From: an uncultured Flavobacteriaceae bacterium | GTDB lineage: Bacteria > Bacteroidota > Bacteroidia > Flavobacteriales > Flavobacteriaceae | Direction of reading: 5' to 3' | Assembly (NCBI GenBank): GCA_913052585.1 | Contig: CAJXEB010000010.1 | Span: forward strand, 1 to 52,426 | DNA length: 52,426 nt | Shown: one piece after another, positions 1,117-48,420 of the stretch | Numbering within the stretch: position 1 is the first letter of the stretch | Layout: every line of letters begins with the position of its first letter | Notes under the pieces: model-generated | What the model saw: the letters and a program-made list of their open reading frames with translations, nothing else | The model's database searches: none | What the model was told of the DNA's origin: nothing | Translations under genes and position numbers: made by a program

Positions 1117-2235
1117 ATGGTAACATTTAAAGATTTAGGAGTTCATAGCAATTATATTAAAGCATTAAAAGAGCTTCAGATAAAAACTCCAACCGAGATT
1201 CAGGAAAAAACCATTCCGGTTTTACTAAAAACTAAAACAGATTTTATTGGTCTAGCTCAAACTGGTACTGGTAAAACAGCTGCTTATGGTCTGCCGGTAT
1301 TAAATAGTATAGATACTAATTCTGCAGTAGTGCAAGCTTTAATATTATCTCCAACACGTGAATTGGTTCAGCAAATAAAGAAGCAACTTTTTAAGTTTAC
1401 TAAATTTAAAGATGAAAAGATTTTTTTGGAAGCAGTATATGGTGGAGAGAAAATCGAAAAGCAGATGCAAAGGTTACAAAGACCTACTCATATTATTGTA
1501 GCTACTCCTGGACGTTTAATAGATTTAATTGAAAAAGGAACCGTAAACCTTAGAAGTATTAAAACAGTAGTACTTGACGAAGCTGACGAAATGTTAAGTA
1601 TGGGTTTCAAAAAGGAATTAGATGCTATTTTAAATTATACAAGTGGATCTAGAAATACTTGGTTGTTTTCAGCAACGATGCCTGAGGAAATACTGCGAAT
1701 TATTTCAAAATACATGGAACCAAGTGCAGTGAAAGTTAGTGTTAATAAAGAATCACTAGTAAACGCAAATATTAATCATCAATATTTAATCACTTCAATT
1801 AAAGAAAAAACAACTGTAGTTTCGCAATTGTTAGATAAATTTAATGAAGGAAGAGGTATTATCTTTTGTAGAACAAAATTAGGGGTTCAAAAATTAGTAA
1901 AAGAACTTAAAGAAGAAGGTTTTTCTGTAGATGCTTTAGAAGGAGATATGCAGCAAAGAGATAGAGATAAAGTAATGAGAATGTTTAAAAAAGGAACATT
2001 ACAGTATTTAATTTCTACCGACGTATCTGCAAGAGGTATTGATGTAAATAATTTAGCTTTTGTAATGCATCACCAATTACCTGAAAATTTAGAATACTAT
2101 ACCCATAGAAGTGGACGAACTGCAAGAGCCGGAAAAACAGGAATATCTTTGGCATTAATTTTACCAAGCGAATTGCAACGGATTCATGAAATCCAGAAAG
2201 CATTAGGAATAAAGTTTGAAGAACAAATGTTATAA
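1117..2235 (+). CDS. DEAD-box ATP-dependent RNA helicase
   Basis: ATP-dependent RNA unwinding in ribosome assembly, RNA decay or cold adaptation, in the cytoplasm. All core motifs are present: a Q-motif region (F4, PTEIQ around 25-29), motif I AQTGTGKT (47-54), PTRELVQQ (79-86), TPGR (130-133), DEAD (154-157), SAT (185-187). In the second RecA domain are IIFCRT, STDVSARGID and HRSGRTARAG. At 372 residues it is just the two-domain core. The basic C-terminal tail and RNA-binding domain found in DbpA or DeaD/CsdA types are absent, so I give no gene name. The DUF1456 gene follows after 17 bases and is probably co-transcribed. Confidence 0.95.
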   Translation: MVTFKDLGVHSNYIKALKELQIKTPTEIQEKTIPVLLKTKTDFIGLAQTGTGKTAAYGLPVLNSIDTNSAVVQALILSPTRELVQQIKKQLFKFTKFKDEKIFLEAVYGGEKIEKQMQRLQRPTHIIVATPGRLIDLIEKGTVNLRSIKTVVLDEADEMLSMGFKKELDAILNYTSGSRNTWLFSATMPEEILRIISKYMEPSAVKVSVNKESLVNANINHQYLITSIKEKTTVVSQLLDKFNEGRGIIFCRTKLGVQKLVKELKEEGFSVDALEGDMQQRDRDKVMRMFKKGTLQYLISTDVSARGIDVNNLAFVMHHQLPENLEYYTHRSGRTARAGKTGISLALILPSELQRIHEIQKALGIKFEEQML

Positions 2236-2252
2236 AATTAATAGAAATTATA

Positions 2253-2498
2253 ATGGCACTATCTAATAACGATATATTTAAAAAATTAAGAGTAGCCTTA
2301 AAATTAAGAGACGAAGAAATAGTAAATATCTTGAAACTTGTTGATTTTAAAGTAACTAAGAGTGAAATTGGGTCTTTTTTTAGAAATGAAAAACATCCGA
2401 AATATGTAGAATGTGGAGATCAAATTCTTCGAAATTTCTTAAATGGATTGGTCATACATTTAAGAGGCCCCATGCCTAAAAAAGAAACAAAAAAATAG
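2253..2498 (+). CDS. DUF1456 (YehS-like) family protein
   Basis: An 81-residue cytoplasmic protein of the DUF1456/YehS family. It opens with SNNDIFKKLRVALKLRDEEI and keeps the FRNEKHPKY and CGDQILRNFLNGL stretches typical of the family. YehS has two such units, so this is a single-unit version. Function is not established. It starts 17 bases after the helicase stop, which suggests one transcript and possibly a nucleic-acid-related role. The tail is lysine-rich. A hairpin terminator begins within its stop codon. Confidence 0.85.
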   Translation: MALSNNDIFKKLRVALKLRDEEIVNILKLVDFKVTKSEIGSFFRNEKHPKYVECGDQILRNFLNGLVIHLRGPMPKKETKK

Positions 2499-2535
2499 CC
2501 TTTAATTCTTTGCTATTAAAGGCAATTAGTTTTTT
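2498..2535. terminator. Bidirectional hairpin terminator
   Basis: The stem is GCCTTTAAT (2498-2506) with ATTAAAGGC (2515-2523). A T-run follows on the plus strand (2530-2535), and on the minus strand the T-rich complement of 2484-2495 follows. It can end both the helicase/DUF1456 transcript and the minus-strand micro-ORF transcript. Confidence 0.75.
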
Positions 2536-2536
2536 A

Positions 2537-2674
2537 CTATTGATAGAGGGAAGTTTGTTTTACAACAGATAATTCTTTGTTGTAGTTGTAAAAGCTTTCT
2601 AGGTAATGCGTAAGTTTTTTTTGTTTCTTGGTTATTCTAGAAAAATGCTGCTGTATTTGATTGGAAGTTTTCAT
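2537..2674 (-). CDS. Possible 45-residue small protein
   Basis: A minus-strand ORF of 45 codons, too short for usual gene calls. It lies 30 bases after the stop of the 29-residue micro-ORF and ends just before the shared terminator. The peptide starts MKTSNQIQQHFSRITKK and is lysine/glutamine-rich. Its beginning loosely resembles the start of the neighbouring micro-ORFs (M-K/R-T, NQI/NQL, then a serine around position 12-14). It lacks their WN-x-KRR end. It may be a divergent member, a different small gene in the same transcript, or chance. There is no ribosome-binding site to decide. Confidence 0.35.
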   Translation of the reverse strand: MKTSNQIQQHFSRITKKQKKLTHYLESFYNYNKELSVVKQTSLYQ

Positions 2675-2704
2675 TTTGATTAATTTTTTTAAAGCTAAAC
2701 TTTT

Positions 2705-2794
2705 TTATTTTCTGTACCTTCTTTTAGAATTCCATATAAATGTTCTTGTTGCACTTAATTTTTCGGATAATTGATTGGTGTTTAAAGTTCTCAT
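2705..2794 (-). CDS. Micro-ORF A of a tandem family (29 aa)
   Basis: A 29-residue basic peptide starting MRTLN and ending WNSKRRYRK. It aligns without gaps over 28 positions with the ORFs at 2833-2919 and 3181-3282. MRTLN, a threonine at 18, WN at 21-22 and KRR at 24-26 are identical in all three. Arginine 26 is AGG here but CGA and CGT in the others, so codons differ while the residue is kept. This is the strongest evidence for real translation. It follows ORF B by 38 bases, probably in one transcript. No hydrophobic segment is present and the function is unknown. It is not one I recognise. Confidence 0.65.
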   Translation of the reverse strand: MRTLNTNQLSEKLSATRTFIWNSKRRYRK

Positions 2795-2832
2795 GATTGT
2801 TTTGTTTTGTGATTGATTAATTTTATTTACTA

Positions 2833-2919
2833 TTATCTAAATCGTCTTTTTGTATTCCAGTTGTACGTTTTAGTTGTGCTTAATTGTTTTGTAATTTGAT
2901 TGTTATTTAAAGTTCTCAT
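2833..2919 (-). CDS. Micro-ORF B of a tandem family (28 aa)
   Basis: A 28-residue basic peptide starting MRTLNNNQITKQLS and ending WNTKRRFR. Same layout as ORFs A and C: an invariant start, a variable Q/K/S/T middle, an aromatic residue before WN, and a KRR terminus. It has the best promoter of the group (2958-2987), and its leader is A-rich without a Shine-Dalgarno site, as is normal in Flavobacteriia. Likely first gene of a B-A(-45 aa) transcript ending at the hairpin near 2500. Function unknown; the basic aromatic tail could contact RNA, ribosome or membrane lipids, but nothing in the sequence decides this. Confidence 0.65.
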   Translation of the reverse strand: MRTLNNNQITKQLSTTKTYNWNTKRRFR

Positions 2920-2957
2920 TGTTTTAATTTTTGTTGGTTATACTATATAGACGATCA

Positions 2958-2987
2958 TAAATATATTTTGTTACAGTACTATGCAAA
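2958..2987 (-). promoter_or_regulatory. Putative promoter of micro-ORFs B and A
   Basis: On the minus strand there is TTTG (2984-2987), an 18-base spacer and TATATTTA (2958-2965). This resembles the TTTG/TAnnTTTG promoter except for the last base. It lies about 40 bases before the ORF B start. The 12-mer TGTAACAAAATA inside it (2964-2975) also occurs at 3328-3339, at nearly the same distance before ORF C. Confidence 0.5.
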
Positions 2988-3089
2988 ACAAAGTAGTTAA
3001 TTAACATATTTTAACAATTATCACCTATAAAATGTAAATAATAGGAGTGGATTAAAGAAAATTAAAATAATTGATCTGATTAAATTAAA

Positions 3090-3133
3090 AAACAAATGCC
3101 CCTTTCATATATATATGAAAGGGGCATTTGTTT
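3090..3133. terminator. Perfect 44-base palindrome, likely terminator
   Basis: Every base from 3090 pairs with its mirror up to 3133. The core arms are ATGCCCCTTTC and GAAAGGGGCAT, flanked by A-rich and T-rich ends. It lies 48 bases downstream of micro-ORF C on the minus strand and would separate C from ORF B. It has a terminator-like composition and works in both directions. A protein-binding palindrome is a less likely alternative. Confidence 0.7.
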
Positions 3134-3180
3134 GATAGCAATACTATATTAAGTGTCGCTATGGCTAATTCAAATTTTTC

Positions 3181-3282
3181 CTAGTACGTACTTAATTTAT
3201 TGAAACGTCTTTTAGTATTCCAATTAAATGTTTTAGATGTTCTAGATTTTTCTGTTAACTTATCGCTATTTAATGTTCTCAT
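3181..3282 (-). CDS. Micro-ORF C of a tandem family (33 aa)
   Basis: A 33-residue member that starts MRTLNSDKLTEK, carries TFNWNTKRRF and adds a short tail (NKLSTY). It aligns gaplessly with A and B over the first 28 residues. It appears to be its own transcription unit, with the shared 12-mer TGTAACAAAATA 46 bases before the start codon and the 44-base palindrome downstream. The codons for arginine and threonine differ from the other copies although the residues agree, which argues for selection on the peptide. Function unknown. Confidence 0.65.
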   Translation of the reverse strand: MRTLNSDKLTEKSRTSKTFNWNTKRRFNKLSTY

Positions 3283-3427
3283 AATTTTAAAATTTATTTG
3301 ATTCTGTATTTAAGACGTAAAATATTTTATTTTGTTACAAATAAATTGTTAATTATTAAATATCTTTAAATATAGTGCAAAAATACACTTTAAAACACAG
3401 TGTAATTACGAATAGTGGAATATTTAA

Positions 3428-5815
3428 CTAAATTTTAGGCTTAAAATTAACTTTAGTGGATGTATTGATAATCTCTTCTTTGTTCATCTTCATTTTTCTA
3501 AACTTCCCAGTATTAAACATTTCTGCTTGATCTTTATAATGTTTACTAAATTGATTTCCAGATTGTCCTGTAGGTAGTATGCTTATACTATTCTCAATGT
3601 CATTAAAATCTATAATACGTCTTGTAGATGGTCCTGACTTTACATTATAAATACCCGTTTCATCTCTCTTATATGCTAAATTGTTAATTACTTCGGAAGC
3701 ACCATTTACAGGAAAAGGACCAACATTAAATATGCCTCGCAATACTTCTACAGAACCCAATGGATGTTGATGTTCTAAAACATGAACCTTATCCCAAGTC
3801 CAGTGATTCATATCCTCACCTAATTGTATTTCTAATTCAAATACAGTTTCAGTAATTGACTTAGAAAGAATGTTACTTTTTGTTTCTATAACATCTTTAG
3901 TATTTATATCATCCCACCAAATAATTTCATTCGTAAACATTTGATCAGCAATAACTCTTTTAATCATATGAGTTTCTTCAAATTGATGGTATAATTCTTC
4001 ACCCATTTCATCTTGAAAAGTATTTTTTAAATAGATGTAAACAAATTTATTATATATAGTAGGAGCTACCGCGTCAAGATTATTGGCTCCATCCCAAAAT
4101 TGCAATACATCAATAGCACGTTGCTCATTTTTATTAAATGAATTGAAATTGATGTTTTTTCTAAGTTCTTTTATAACGTCTACAGATACTGTTGATGTAA
4201 CATCAGTAATCATGATCATAGCAGAATTTTTATTCCAATTGTTTTTTGGTTCCAATAGACTTACAATTCTTTTTGCTCGATCTTCGGGTAAATAGTATCC
4301 GGGATATATCATTCCAGCAATACTATCGGGTTGATTGTTTGCTGAATAAACATAATTCCAAGCAGGATTTTCGGCCATTGGATTTTCTGAAAAATCTAAA
4401 TATTCAATAATGTCATCTTTTCCTGAAGCACCATCCAGAACAAATTTAGTTTTTACATGAGGTGAAAATTTATATATTTTTGCGGAAGCCCACCAAGCAA
4501 TGTTTCCATTAGAATCGCCATACATAACGTTTAAACCAGGTGCATGAATCATAGATGCTCCAACTTTAAACTCTTCTTTTGAGGTTGCGATAGACATATT
4601 ATGTACAGCCTCAATTAACTTATTATCAAGTTGTGTATATATCCATGATAAAGCAATAGGAGCGCTTTCATTAATGGTGCCCAAAACATCATTCACTATT
4701 GGTCCGTGACGACTACTTTTATAATTAAAAATAACATCCTCTTCATCTTTTACTTTTATGGTTTTTGATGTCGAAACATAAGAATCATAACCAGTAGGAG
4801 TTTTAAATTTAGTAGGGTCTTTAGGATGATTTTCTTCTTTATAAAAATCAATGTCATCATTTTCGAACATCGTTAATCCGTAAGCCTGTTCTCTATTATG
4901 TCCCAAAAGAGGGAAAGGTATATTGGGTAAAAAATAACCATAAATTTCGTAATTAGGTGTTTCTATATGCGCTTCAAACCAAATGGAAGGTTGTGAAAAA
5001 CCAATATGAGGATCGTTTGCAAATAGTACTTTTCCAGATTCCGTTTTATCGCTTCCAATGACCCAGCTGTTACTTCCTATAAAAGGAGGAATAGGGGAAG
5101 TATTCATTATAGTATTGATATTTGAAACCATTTGGCCATAGCTTTCAATATCTGCTTTTGAATTTTTTATAAATAATGTTTCAGGATTAATATCAATATT
5201 CAATGCTTTTAAATATTCTTCACCCAGCTTATTTTGCAAAGAGCTCATTAATGGATCTGTTTTTTGTGCCATAGCAAAACTAAAAGCCATATAACCCAGT
5301 ACATTATAAACATCCTTTATAATAAAATGTTCTTTTTTAAGCCCTATTAATGTATATTCAATAGGAGTAGGGCCTTCATCCATAAATTGGTTGATCCCTT
5401 TTAAGTAAGCTTTCATTAATTGATAAACTTCACTATTGGTATCTAAATTAGTGACAGATTTTTCAGAATATTCATCAATACCCAAACTGGCGAAGAATTT
5501 ATCATTTTCAACAAGATCCTTACCAAATAATTCGGCAAGACGACCAGGGGCAATTCTTCTCATTAATTCCATTTGCCACAAACGATCTTGAGCTTGAACA
5601 TAGCCAAGTGTTACTATAGCATCCATATGGCTATCGGCATAAATATGAGGAATACCAAAATCATCAAAATATACAGTGGTTTCTTTTTCAATAGTTGTTA
5701 ATGATACTTCACCAGAATAACTTGGTTTTAAATGGTTATGATACCAAAAGCCGATAATGGTTATTAACACTAAGATAATTAATAAAAGTTTTAATAATTT
5801 TTTGAGAATTCGCAT
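3428..5815 (-). CDS. Penicillin acylase family protein (Ntn hydrolase)
   Basis: A 795-residue N-terminal-nucleophile amidohydrolase of the penicillin acylase family, acting on acylated amines such as beta-lactams or N-acyl-homoserine lactones. The true substrate cannot be read from the sequence. An N-terminal hydrophobic segment (about 5-25) serves as signal or anchor, so it acts in the periplasm. The alpha-chain part has the FDDFGIPHIYADS and GYVQAQDRLWQMELMRR blocks. The autocatalytic site is GSNSW with the nucleophile Ser250, at the start of the beta chain. Later conserved parts include FANDPHIG, HGPIVND, YGDSNGNIAWW and GPSTRRIIDF. Length is normal for the family. It is a single gene between a terminator-rich gap and a divergent oxidoreductase. 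Confidence 0.9.
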   Translation of the reverse strand: MRILKKLLKLLLIILVLITIIGFWYHNHLKPSYSGEVSLTTIEKETTVYFDDFGIPHIYADSHMDAIVTLGYVQAQDRLWQMELMRRIAPGRLAELFGKDLVENDKFFASLGIDEYSEKSVTNLDTNSEVYQLMKAYLKGINQFMDEGPTPIEYTLIGLKKEHFIIKDVYNVLGYMAFSFAMAQKTDPLMSSLQNKLGEEYLKALNIDINPETLFIKNSKADIESYGQMVSNINTIMNTSPIPPFIGSNSWVIGSDKTESGKVLFANDPHIGFSQPSIWFEAHIETPNYEIYGYFLPNIPFPLLGHNREQAYGLTMFENDDIDFYKEENHPKDPTKFKTPTGYDSYVSTSKTIKVKDEEDVIFNYKSSRHGPIVNDVLGTINESAPIALSWIYTQLDNKLIEAVHNMSIATSKEEFKVGASMIHAPGLNVMYGDSNGNIAWWASAKIYKFSPHVKTKFVLDGASGKDDIIEYLDFSENPMAENPAWNYVYSANNQPDSIAGMIYPGYYLPEDRAKRIVSLLEPKNNWNKNSAMIMITDVTSTVSVDVIKELRKNINFNSFNKNEQRAIDVLQFWDGANNLDAVAPTIYNKFVYIYLKNTFQDEMGEELYHQFEETHMIKRVIADQMFTNEIIWWDDINTKDVIETKSNILSKSITETVFELEIQLGEDMNHWTWDKVHVLEHQHPLGSVEVLRGIFNVGPFPVNGASEVINNLAYKRDETGIYNVKSGPSTRRIIDFNDIENSISILPTGQSGNQFSKHYKDQAEMFNTGKFRKMKMNKEEIINTSTKVNFKPKI

Positions 5816-48017: not shown

Positions 48018-48420
48018 AATTAAGTTTTTGATTGGTTGTTATTAGTTAGTAAATTACTTGTATATGACGAACTATGGCTTTGATATGTTACAGAATAATA
48101 CATTAATTACAACAATTGATATATGTTAGGTTTTTTTATTTTGAATTCATTTAACAAGAATTGTGTATTTATTTAGTGTTAATGGATTGATTTTCTTTCC
48201 GCAGTAATTAAAAAAAATGGACATCGATTACTGATATTGTGTGTGTTACAAAAACAATGCCGAAATCATTTTATTTTTAAAACTGAAGTCAAACCTTTCG
48301 TAGCAACTACCGTAGCTAAGTAGCTATTATACAAGCTTCTCTAGATGGGCTTTTAACATAGCTTTAACCTTCAAAAACGGATAATGTGAATCTAATTTCT
48401 TATCTTAACTGAGAATATAA

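Follow-up and report, generated by a model that had tools for sequence, protein, structure and literature searches.

Many marine Flavobacteriaceae carry a family of very short basic proteins, here named family A, that are conserved under selection as peptides and encoded in arrays whose first copy alone is preceded by a control region of fixed geometry. Three elements of this control region recur at three regulator operons. The family was recognized from small ORFs in one contig of an uncultured Flavobacteriaceae bacterium, which was analysed over a stretch of 52,426 nucleotides (hereafter the window). On the basis of sequence comparisons, the ORFs are almost certainly real genes maintained by selection. 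What is new is how the arrays appear to be controlled from their upstream region; together with a second small-protein family and the division of the window copies into two transcription units, it goes beyond the initial annotation of this DNA. The existence of the genes and their common control elements are well supported, and their molecular action is what we infer.

The three minus-strand ORFs in the window comprise 29, 28 and 33 codons (copies 1, 2 and 3; Table 1). The initial annotation had reported them as micro-ORFs that align without gaps over 28 residues, which was borne out, coordinates included. MRTLN, T18, W21-N22 and K24-R25-R26 are identical in the three copies as claimed, and Arg26 is indeed encoded by AGG, CGA and CGT. 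Family-wide, this invariance holds only in part: position 18 is mostly G, S or T, and one member has W-D instead of W-N. The view of the three copies as a single tandem could be kept for copies 2 and 1, which lie in the same unit together with a 45-codon ORF, but not for copy 3, which forms a unit of its own because an inverted repeat with a T-rich tail separates it from copy 2. Copy 3 has its own promoter element and a strong terminator behind it, and a penicillin amidase gene (3428-5815) lies upstream of it on the same strand. No Rfam match was obtained for the window at gathering scores, and a sigma-70 consensus scan of positions 2200-3600 gave 5 promoter-like sites versus a shuffle mean of 10.7.

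Table 1 Features of the two family A transcription units in the window
Feature	Position	Strand	Remark
ECF-sigma-type promoter element TGTAAC-N16-CGTC, unit 1	3314..3339	-	starts 57 nt before the copy 3 ATG
Copy 3, family A, 33 aa	3181..3282	-	
Terminator-like site, unit 1	3090..3133	-	22-nt perfect inverted repeat and T-rich tail
Direct repeat TGTTAA-N4-TGTTAA, period 10	3001..3016	-	also upstream of the RprXY-like operon
Palindrome TACTTTGTTTTGCATAGTA	2977..2995	-	ends 1 nt before the -35; also upstream of PadR-PspC genes
ECF-sigma-type promoter element TGTAAC-N16-CGTC, unit 2	2950..2975	-	
Copy 2, family A, 28 aa	2833..2919	-	
Copy 1, family A, 29 aa	2705..2794	-	
Family B small protein, 45 aa	2537..2674	-	last gene of unit 2
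Terminator-like site on both strands	2498..2523	both	common to unit 2 and the convergent DUF1456 gene

A profile of the three window copies identified six copies in the same genome, three of them on another contig (E 1.6e-16 to 6e-14). Elsewhere in the genus, 11 of 18 genomes had a hit at E < 1e-6. Since the same profile finds copies elsewhere in the genome and the genus, the similarity of the three ORFs is far beyond chance. With this profile, no match better than 0.06 was observed in 23 genomes from other families of the same order. A search for homologues outside this genome, which the initial annotation had suggested as a check, succeeded on a larger scale with a wider profile: 105 of the 299 genomes in a Flavobacteriaceae sample (own genome counted), from 84 of 236 genera, matched at E ≤ 1e-3, and 343 genomic contig stretches were found. 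A sample of the phylum contained four matching genomes out of 296, all Flavobacteriaceae and the own genome among them; the kinship of most genomes in that sample is not listed, so that the outer limit of the family is only roughly fixed. Among the best 80 of the 343 matches, the named carriers included Aquimarina, Hyunsoonleella, Algibacter, Mesoflavibacter, Jejuia, Flavivirga, Xanthomarina, Winogradskyella, Bizionia and Seonamhaeicola.

Removal of identical copies reduced 236 hits to 216 non-redundant members (183 distinct peptides), of which 182 are exactly 28 residues long; loci L001-L035 and L084-L090, which repeat places already in the set, had been excluded beforehand. These members form 109 arrays of 1-6 copies (42 single, 43 double, 13 triple and 11 larger), with copies spaced 103 to 254 nt apart, mostly 115-160. 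The highest number among the genomes listed was nine members, in G023. It should be noted that the arrays are not independent, many of them coming from related species with a bias to close matches (the best 80 of 343), and that one array (L147) had too little upstream sequence, which leaves 108 for the upstream counts below. The initial annotation knew of no described family of this kind, and our searches agree with it. No match could be found in Pfam for the three window copies, in NCBIfam and PHROGs for these copies and two relatives, or in PDB with a family A profile of 32 sequences; the 33-residue copy had no match in phages and one 28-residue relative none in plasmids. Four family A peptide strings were absent from the literature searched, and small-protein catalogues may list such peptides unnamed.

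The initial annotation had ascribed the substitution pattern to selection on a protein, and this was confirmed: synonymous sites are favoured and pN/pS is well below 1. Of the two outcomes that it had named as refuting, a lack of homologues elsewhere and a lack of preference for synonymous changes, neither was obtained. For the three window pairs, synonymous and non-synonymous differences per site were 0.57/0.20, 0.44/0.25 and 0.69/0.18. Across 209 distinct sequences, pN/pS increased with the distance class, from 0.06 in the closest through 0.21, 0.37 and 0.42 to 0.48 in the most distant, pN lay below pS in 97-100% of pairs, and most changes fell at third positions. Residues conserved family-wide are M1 R2 T3 L4, W21 N22 and K24 R25 R26, followed by [YF] and [RK]; W21 N22 is invariant in this set by construction, as the filter (28 residues and W-N at 21-22) retained 211 of the 216 members and dropped three short ones (L050, L111, L113), one cut by a contig end (L068) and the one with W-D (L097). 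R2 is encoded by AGA in 198 of the 209 sequences, a preference that may reflect the initiation region.

Codon usage was compared by the share of C-ending codons (two-fold and Ile choices), which was 0.49 in family A, 0.38 in ribosomal S7 genes (17 genes, one of 18 S7 loci being unreadable) and 0.22 in neighbour ORFs (0.25 for their codons 2-28 only). The share in family A was 0.44 without the first eight codons; arrays from the same genome set as the S7 genes had 0.44, which fell to 0.36 when these eight codons were left out. At 97 of 103 loci the arrays exceeded their own neighbours. The window copies had 6 of 20 C-ending codons versus 0.18 in their neighbours, and family B, described below, had a share of 0.30. 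Codon usage like that of ribosomal genes points to strong expression, though with less certainty for the group to which the window belongs, and the family A product would be high in abundance.

The upstream consensus of the arrays is TGTTAA-N4-TGTTAA ... TACTTTG-N5-CATAGTA-C-TGTAAC-N16-CGTC-TA. Its downstream part, TGTAAC-N16-CGTC, resembles promoters recognized by ECF sigma factors in the form known from B. subtilis. This element was present within 200 nt upstream of 84 of the 108 first copies, the commonest distance to the ATG being 57-61 nt, and upstream of none of the 107 later copies (110 nt searched); in letter shuffles of the array upstreams it occurred in a mean of 0.0 of 108. Of the 24 first copies missing the exact element, eight had one mismatch and 16 had three or more, and 15 of these 16 were single copies, the remaining one (L105) probably not being the true first copy. 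These 16 are mostly divergent singles, a set that would accordingly be under different control or under none. At one locus (L048, around 7272), TGTAAC is kept, a hairpin-like stretch takes the place of CGTC, and the control region looks interrupted. A variant with N17 also occurs on the minus strand of the window at 48066-48092; given this spacing, it is probably a chance occurrence.

Genome-wide, TGTAAC-N16-CGTC-TA was found 20 times in six genomes versus twice for a reversed control. A looser form (N16-17, without TA) occurred at 1.5-2.2 times the control in 10 of 12 genomes, at seven times in one, and below the control in G117 (11 versus 17). Single sites of the looser form therefore prove little. 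Among 17 loci with further element sites, six precede an ECF sigma gene that is followed by a small gene and DUF4252-type genes. The sigma gene could be identified in 28 of 30 genomes searched; the exact element lies within 200 nt upstream of it in 26 of the 28, and the other two have one mismatch in the -35 (an earlier search, now superseded, had found the element in 9 of 10 anchorable loci, 18 of the 28 not being anchorable). The sigma protein belongs to the NCBIfam 'GFO_1088 family ECF-type sigma factor' (sigma_PG0214; NF058625, 242 versus a cut-off of 130) and its DUF4252 partner to 'GFO_1090' (NF058626, 212.8 versus a cut-off of 150). The sigma gene was detected in 8 of 10 array-free genomes and in the array genomes (20 searched), with the exception of G017. 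It is thus present with or without arrays, which suggests that the circuit was in place before the arrays became part of it.

Other genes behind the element encode a TonB-plug outer-membrane protein and rhodanese proteins and, as judged by eye, thioredoxin-like neighbours and ABC transporter operons, so that the set looks like a candidate envelope regulon. The arrays carry -35 and -10 sequences with the same spacing as in the sigma operon, as would be expected of a target promoter of the PG0214-type regulon, and it is very likely on this sequence evidence that they are controlled by an ECF sigma factor of the PG0214/GFO_1088 type. Several individual loci deserve mention. Two successive ECF-type elements belong to an outer-membrane/TonB-plug gene at L071 (about 4003-4270) and at L073 (about 3948-4215), the second element being preceded by a TGTTAA direct repeat and, in L071, containing one mismatch. 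The element also stands before operons that by eye resemble those of ABC transporters and MacB-like permeases (L204, L210, L211, L214, L212 and L215) and before a CPBP-like membrane protein (L213).

The second element, the palindrome TACT-N11-AGTA, was observed at 46 of 108 arrays, that is, under half of them, compared with 0.8 in shuffles. In 43 of the 44 arrays having both elements it ends 1 nt before TGTAAC, and a protein bound there would therefore touch the -35. The own genome contains one other exact site. It lies upstream of a gene that, as judged by eye, encodes a small membrane protein, and genes for PadR (PF03551) and PspC (PF04024) come next. Of 30 genomes searched, 29 have PadR, irrespective of whether they carry arrays. 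The palindrome was present within one mismatch at 28 of the 29 PadR loci (six exact), in all 28 at 415-1207 nt upstream of the PadR start, and the 29th had none; five shuffles per locus were never better than two mismatches. An earlier search, superseded by this one, had found an exact TACT-N11-AGTA in 9 of the 29 loci, not all within the promoter. The palindrome is thus common to the PadR operon and many arrays, as is expected of a PadR regulon, and a link between PadR and the arrays appears likely. For PadR combined with PspC/HAAS proteins, a role as a switch responding to membrane stress has been proposed (PMC11237479).

The third element is the direct repeat, which was found at 70 of 108 arrays (0.1 in shuffles), with a period of 10 in most. 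It recurs in front of a histidine kinase gene that has an OmpR-type regulator gene behind it, and the strict repeat could be identified upstream of 12 of 14 RprX-like kinase genes; of the two failing loci, L294 has a partial repeat and L295 was matched only from residue 146, so that its true upstream lies outside the match. The best NCBIfam match of the regulator was RprY (NF051850), with 276.6 bits against a cut-off of 370, and it is therefore named RprY-like only. At E 1e-60, no kinase was found in 16 of the 30 genomes, nine of which have arrays. In three of these (G017, G024 and G035) the arrays carry the direct repeat all the same, and in array genomes of this kind the repeat may be served by a kinase of more remote similarity or by a different regulator. 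For this reason the RprXY link, the weakest of the three inputs, was downgraded from fairly likely to somewhat better than even. In L276, a GLPGLI-family gene (TIGR01200) is divergent from the RprXY-like operon, and genes resembling it are divergent from the direct repeat in L274, L275 and L277.

The 45-codon ORF at the end of unit 2 resembles ORFs at the equivalent place in other arrays. This second family, family B (43-45 residues), was detected by a profile at E ≤ 0.05 behind 56 of the 109 arrays, namely 47 of 67 multi-copy and 9 of 42 single-copy arrays. The search covered 130 nt from the last family A copy, and the profile had been retrained on the hits that it gave. The six family B members with the weakest scores (E 0.01-0.05) are doubtful, one of them being a 25-residue form. 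A few further arrays end with an ORF under the threshold that has the W-x-G-x-K-R-Y tail; the window member is divergent and lacks this tail. For 35 distinct members of 44 residues, pN/pS was 0.36 over 100 pairs of at least 45% identity, and family B has an amphipathic basic helix tendency (z +1.28). Profile-profile comparison of families A and B gave an hhalign probability of 4%; by eye, the two have only a W..KRY tail in common. In L054, L066, L140, L156, L161 and L168, an ORF of 22-25 codons (M-[KR]-x-L-[ST]-[KR]-I type) stands in the place of family B and is perhaps a shortened form; L168 was counted among the 56.

Taken together, we consider it slightly favoured by the sequence data that family A is an abundant cationic microprotein induced by envelope stress, probably binding a polyanion such as RNA/ribosome or the membrane surface. 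Its operons consist of one to six family A genes in a row ([A]1-6), in many cases with a single family B gene behind them. Envelope stress would lead a PG0214/GFO_1088-type ECF sigma factor to transcribe the arrays, a PadR repressor coupled to the PspC membrane protein would gate the -35 at palindrome arrays, and an RprY-like response regulator would be a third input. The product would be made in stoichiometric amounts, with copy number setting the dose. The C-terminal tail W-N-x-K-R-R-[YF]-[RK], which bears most of the charge, might bind the polyanion. Binding of RNA or ribosomes might then protect or slow translation during envelope repair, and family B, with its tendency to an amphipathic basic helix, might sit at the membrane.

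Several alternatives were weighed against this scheme. The peptides are 28-33 residues long with a net charge of about +7, and residues 17-28 carry +4.8 of the +6.4 summed over residues 1-28 in the absence of helical amphipathicity (mean z -0.85, below their own shuffles). For this reason RNA/ribosome is preferred to membrane insertion and put first among the targets, at clearly less than an even chance. Between RNA and a protein partner our results show no preference, and the one argument against lipid is the missing amphipathicity. An AlphaFold model of the 33-residue copy (helix 17-29; pLDDT 65.9, pTM 0.24) was poor and was not used as evidence. It is rather less probable, though a serious alternative, that family A under the same stress control coats the inner leaflet, or another anionic polymer of the envelope, by electrostatic attraction and stabilizes the membrane, much like PspA but in a different way. 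In its favour, the linked regulators resemble envelope/membrane-stress types, PspC with PadR has been proposed as a membrane-stress switch (PMC11237479), family B has amphipathic basic helix character and family A a strong positive charge. Against it, no run of family A free of polar, charged or Gly residues exceeds 4 (mean hydrophobicity 0.09), and its amphipathicity is as low as given above. The most complete version of our preferred scheme is doubtful as a whole. In it, Flavobacteriaceae-specific RNA-/ribosome-binding microproteins would be the main effector of envelope stress, with ECF sigma, PadR-PspC and a two-component system acting on one promoter, family B as a membrane-bound partner from the same transcript and dose set by copy number.

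Conservation of W-N and of K-R-R would suit residues that make a specific contact, and many known bacterial microproteins act by binding one protein partner. A peptide that binds a sigma/anti-sigma factor, a protease or RNA polymerase and so tunes the stress response would fit both points; multiple copies per array, multiple arrays per genome and the codon usage of an abundant protein suggest a stoichiometric role instead, and we regard such a regulator as unlikely. Short, cationic and multi-copy products might also be exported antimicrobial or signalling peptides made under stress, which is quite improbable, as no signal sequence was seen by eye, Cys occurs in only 4 of 179 peptides, no ORF of at least 80 residues constantly adjoins the 109 arrays within 3.5 kb, and W-N-x-K-R-R is kept across many genera and is not diversifying. 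Tandem copies of short ORFs resemble the Ldr and Ibs loci, which would make family A a type I toxin with an antisense RNA. Those toxins are hydrophobic membrane peptides, family A is hydrophilic and basic, and with no Rfam match in the window at gathering scores this reading is highly improbable. Short ORFs do stand ahead of other genes at some loci, as attenuator leader peptides would. This reading, like that of a DNA/RNA repeat instead of genes, is hardly tenable: it is contradicted by pN/pS and by the absence of a constant downstream gene, the commonest co-directional one (at least 80 residues) lying behind only 21 of 109 arrays, and in the window each of the two units has a terminator-like site at its end.

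Roughly one in three Flavobacteriaceae genomes in the sample carries these genes, which are named by no gene library searched. Their promoters offer a readable binding code for the envelope-stress regulators of Bacteroidota, the response is directly testable in culturable strains, and the arrays may be among the strongest outputs of the envelope-stress response.

Among known systems, RMF, Sra and bTHX are small basic ribosome-associated stress proteins that family A resembles in size, charge and presumed abundance. It differs from them in its ECF-type promoter and tandem copies, and no sequence match was found in Pfam, NCBIfam or PDB. The ECF sigma operon of the PG0214/GFO_1088 type (sigma, putative anti-sigma and DUF4252) shares its promoter element with the arrays. 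Strain FLL361 of P. gingivalis shows a joint 8-11-fold increase of PG_0214, PG_0215 and PG_0216 (DUF4252) under a stress that is taken to be peroxide (PMC10101095). The operon itself is without the microproteins of families A and B, of which no description was found. With the RprX-RprY system the arrays may have in common the direct repeat, which lies upstream of an RprXY-like operon whose regulator is closest to RprY but scores under the curated cut-off. The P. gingivalis RprY has been connected with sodium, iron and oxidative stress (PMC5706477). Finally, the PadR-HAAS-PspC membrane-stress systems share with many arrays the palindrome upstream of their PadR genes; they have been described mainly from gene neighbourhoods, and the available portion of PMC11237479 names no microprotein target.
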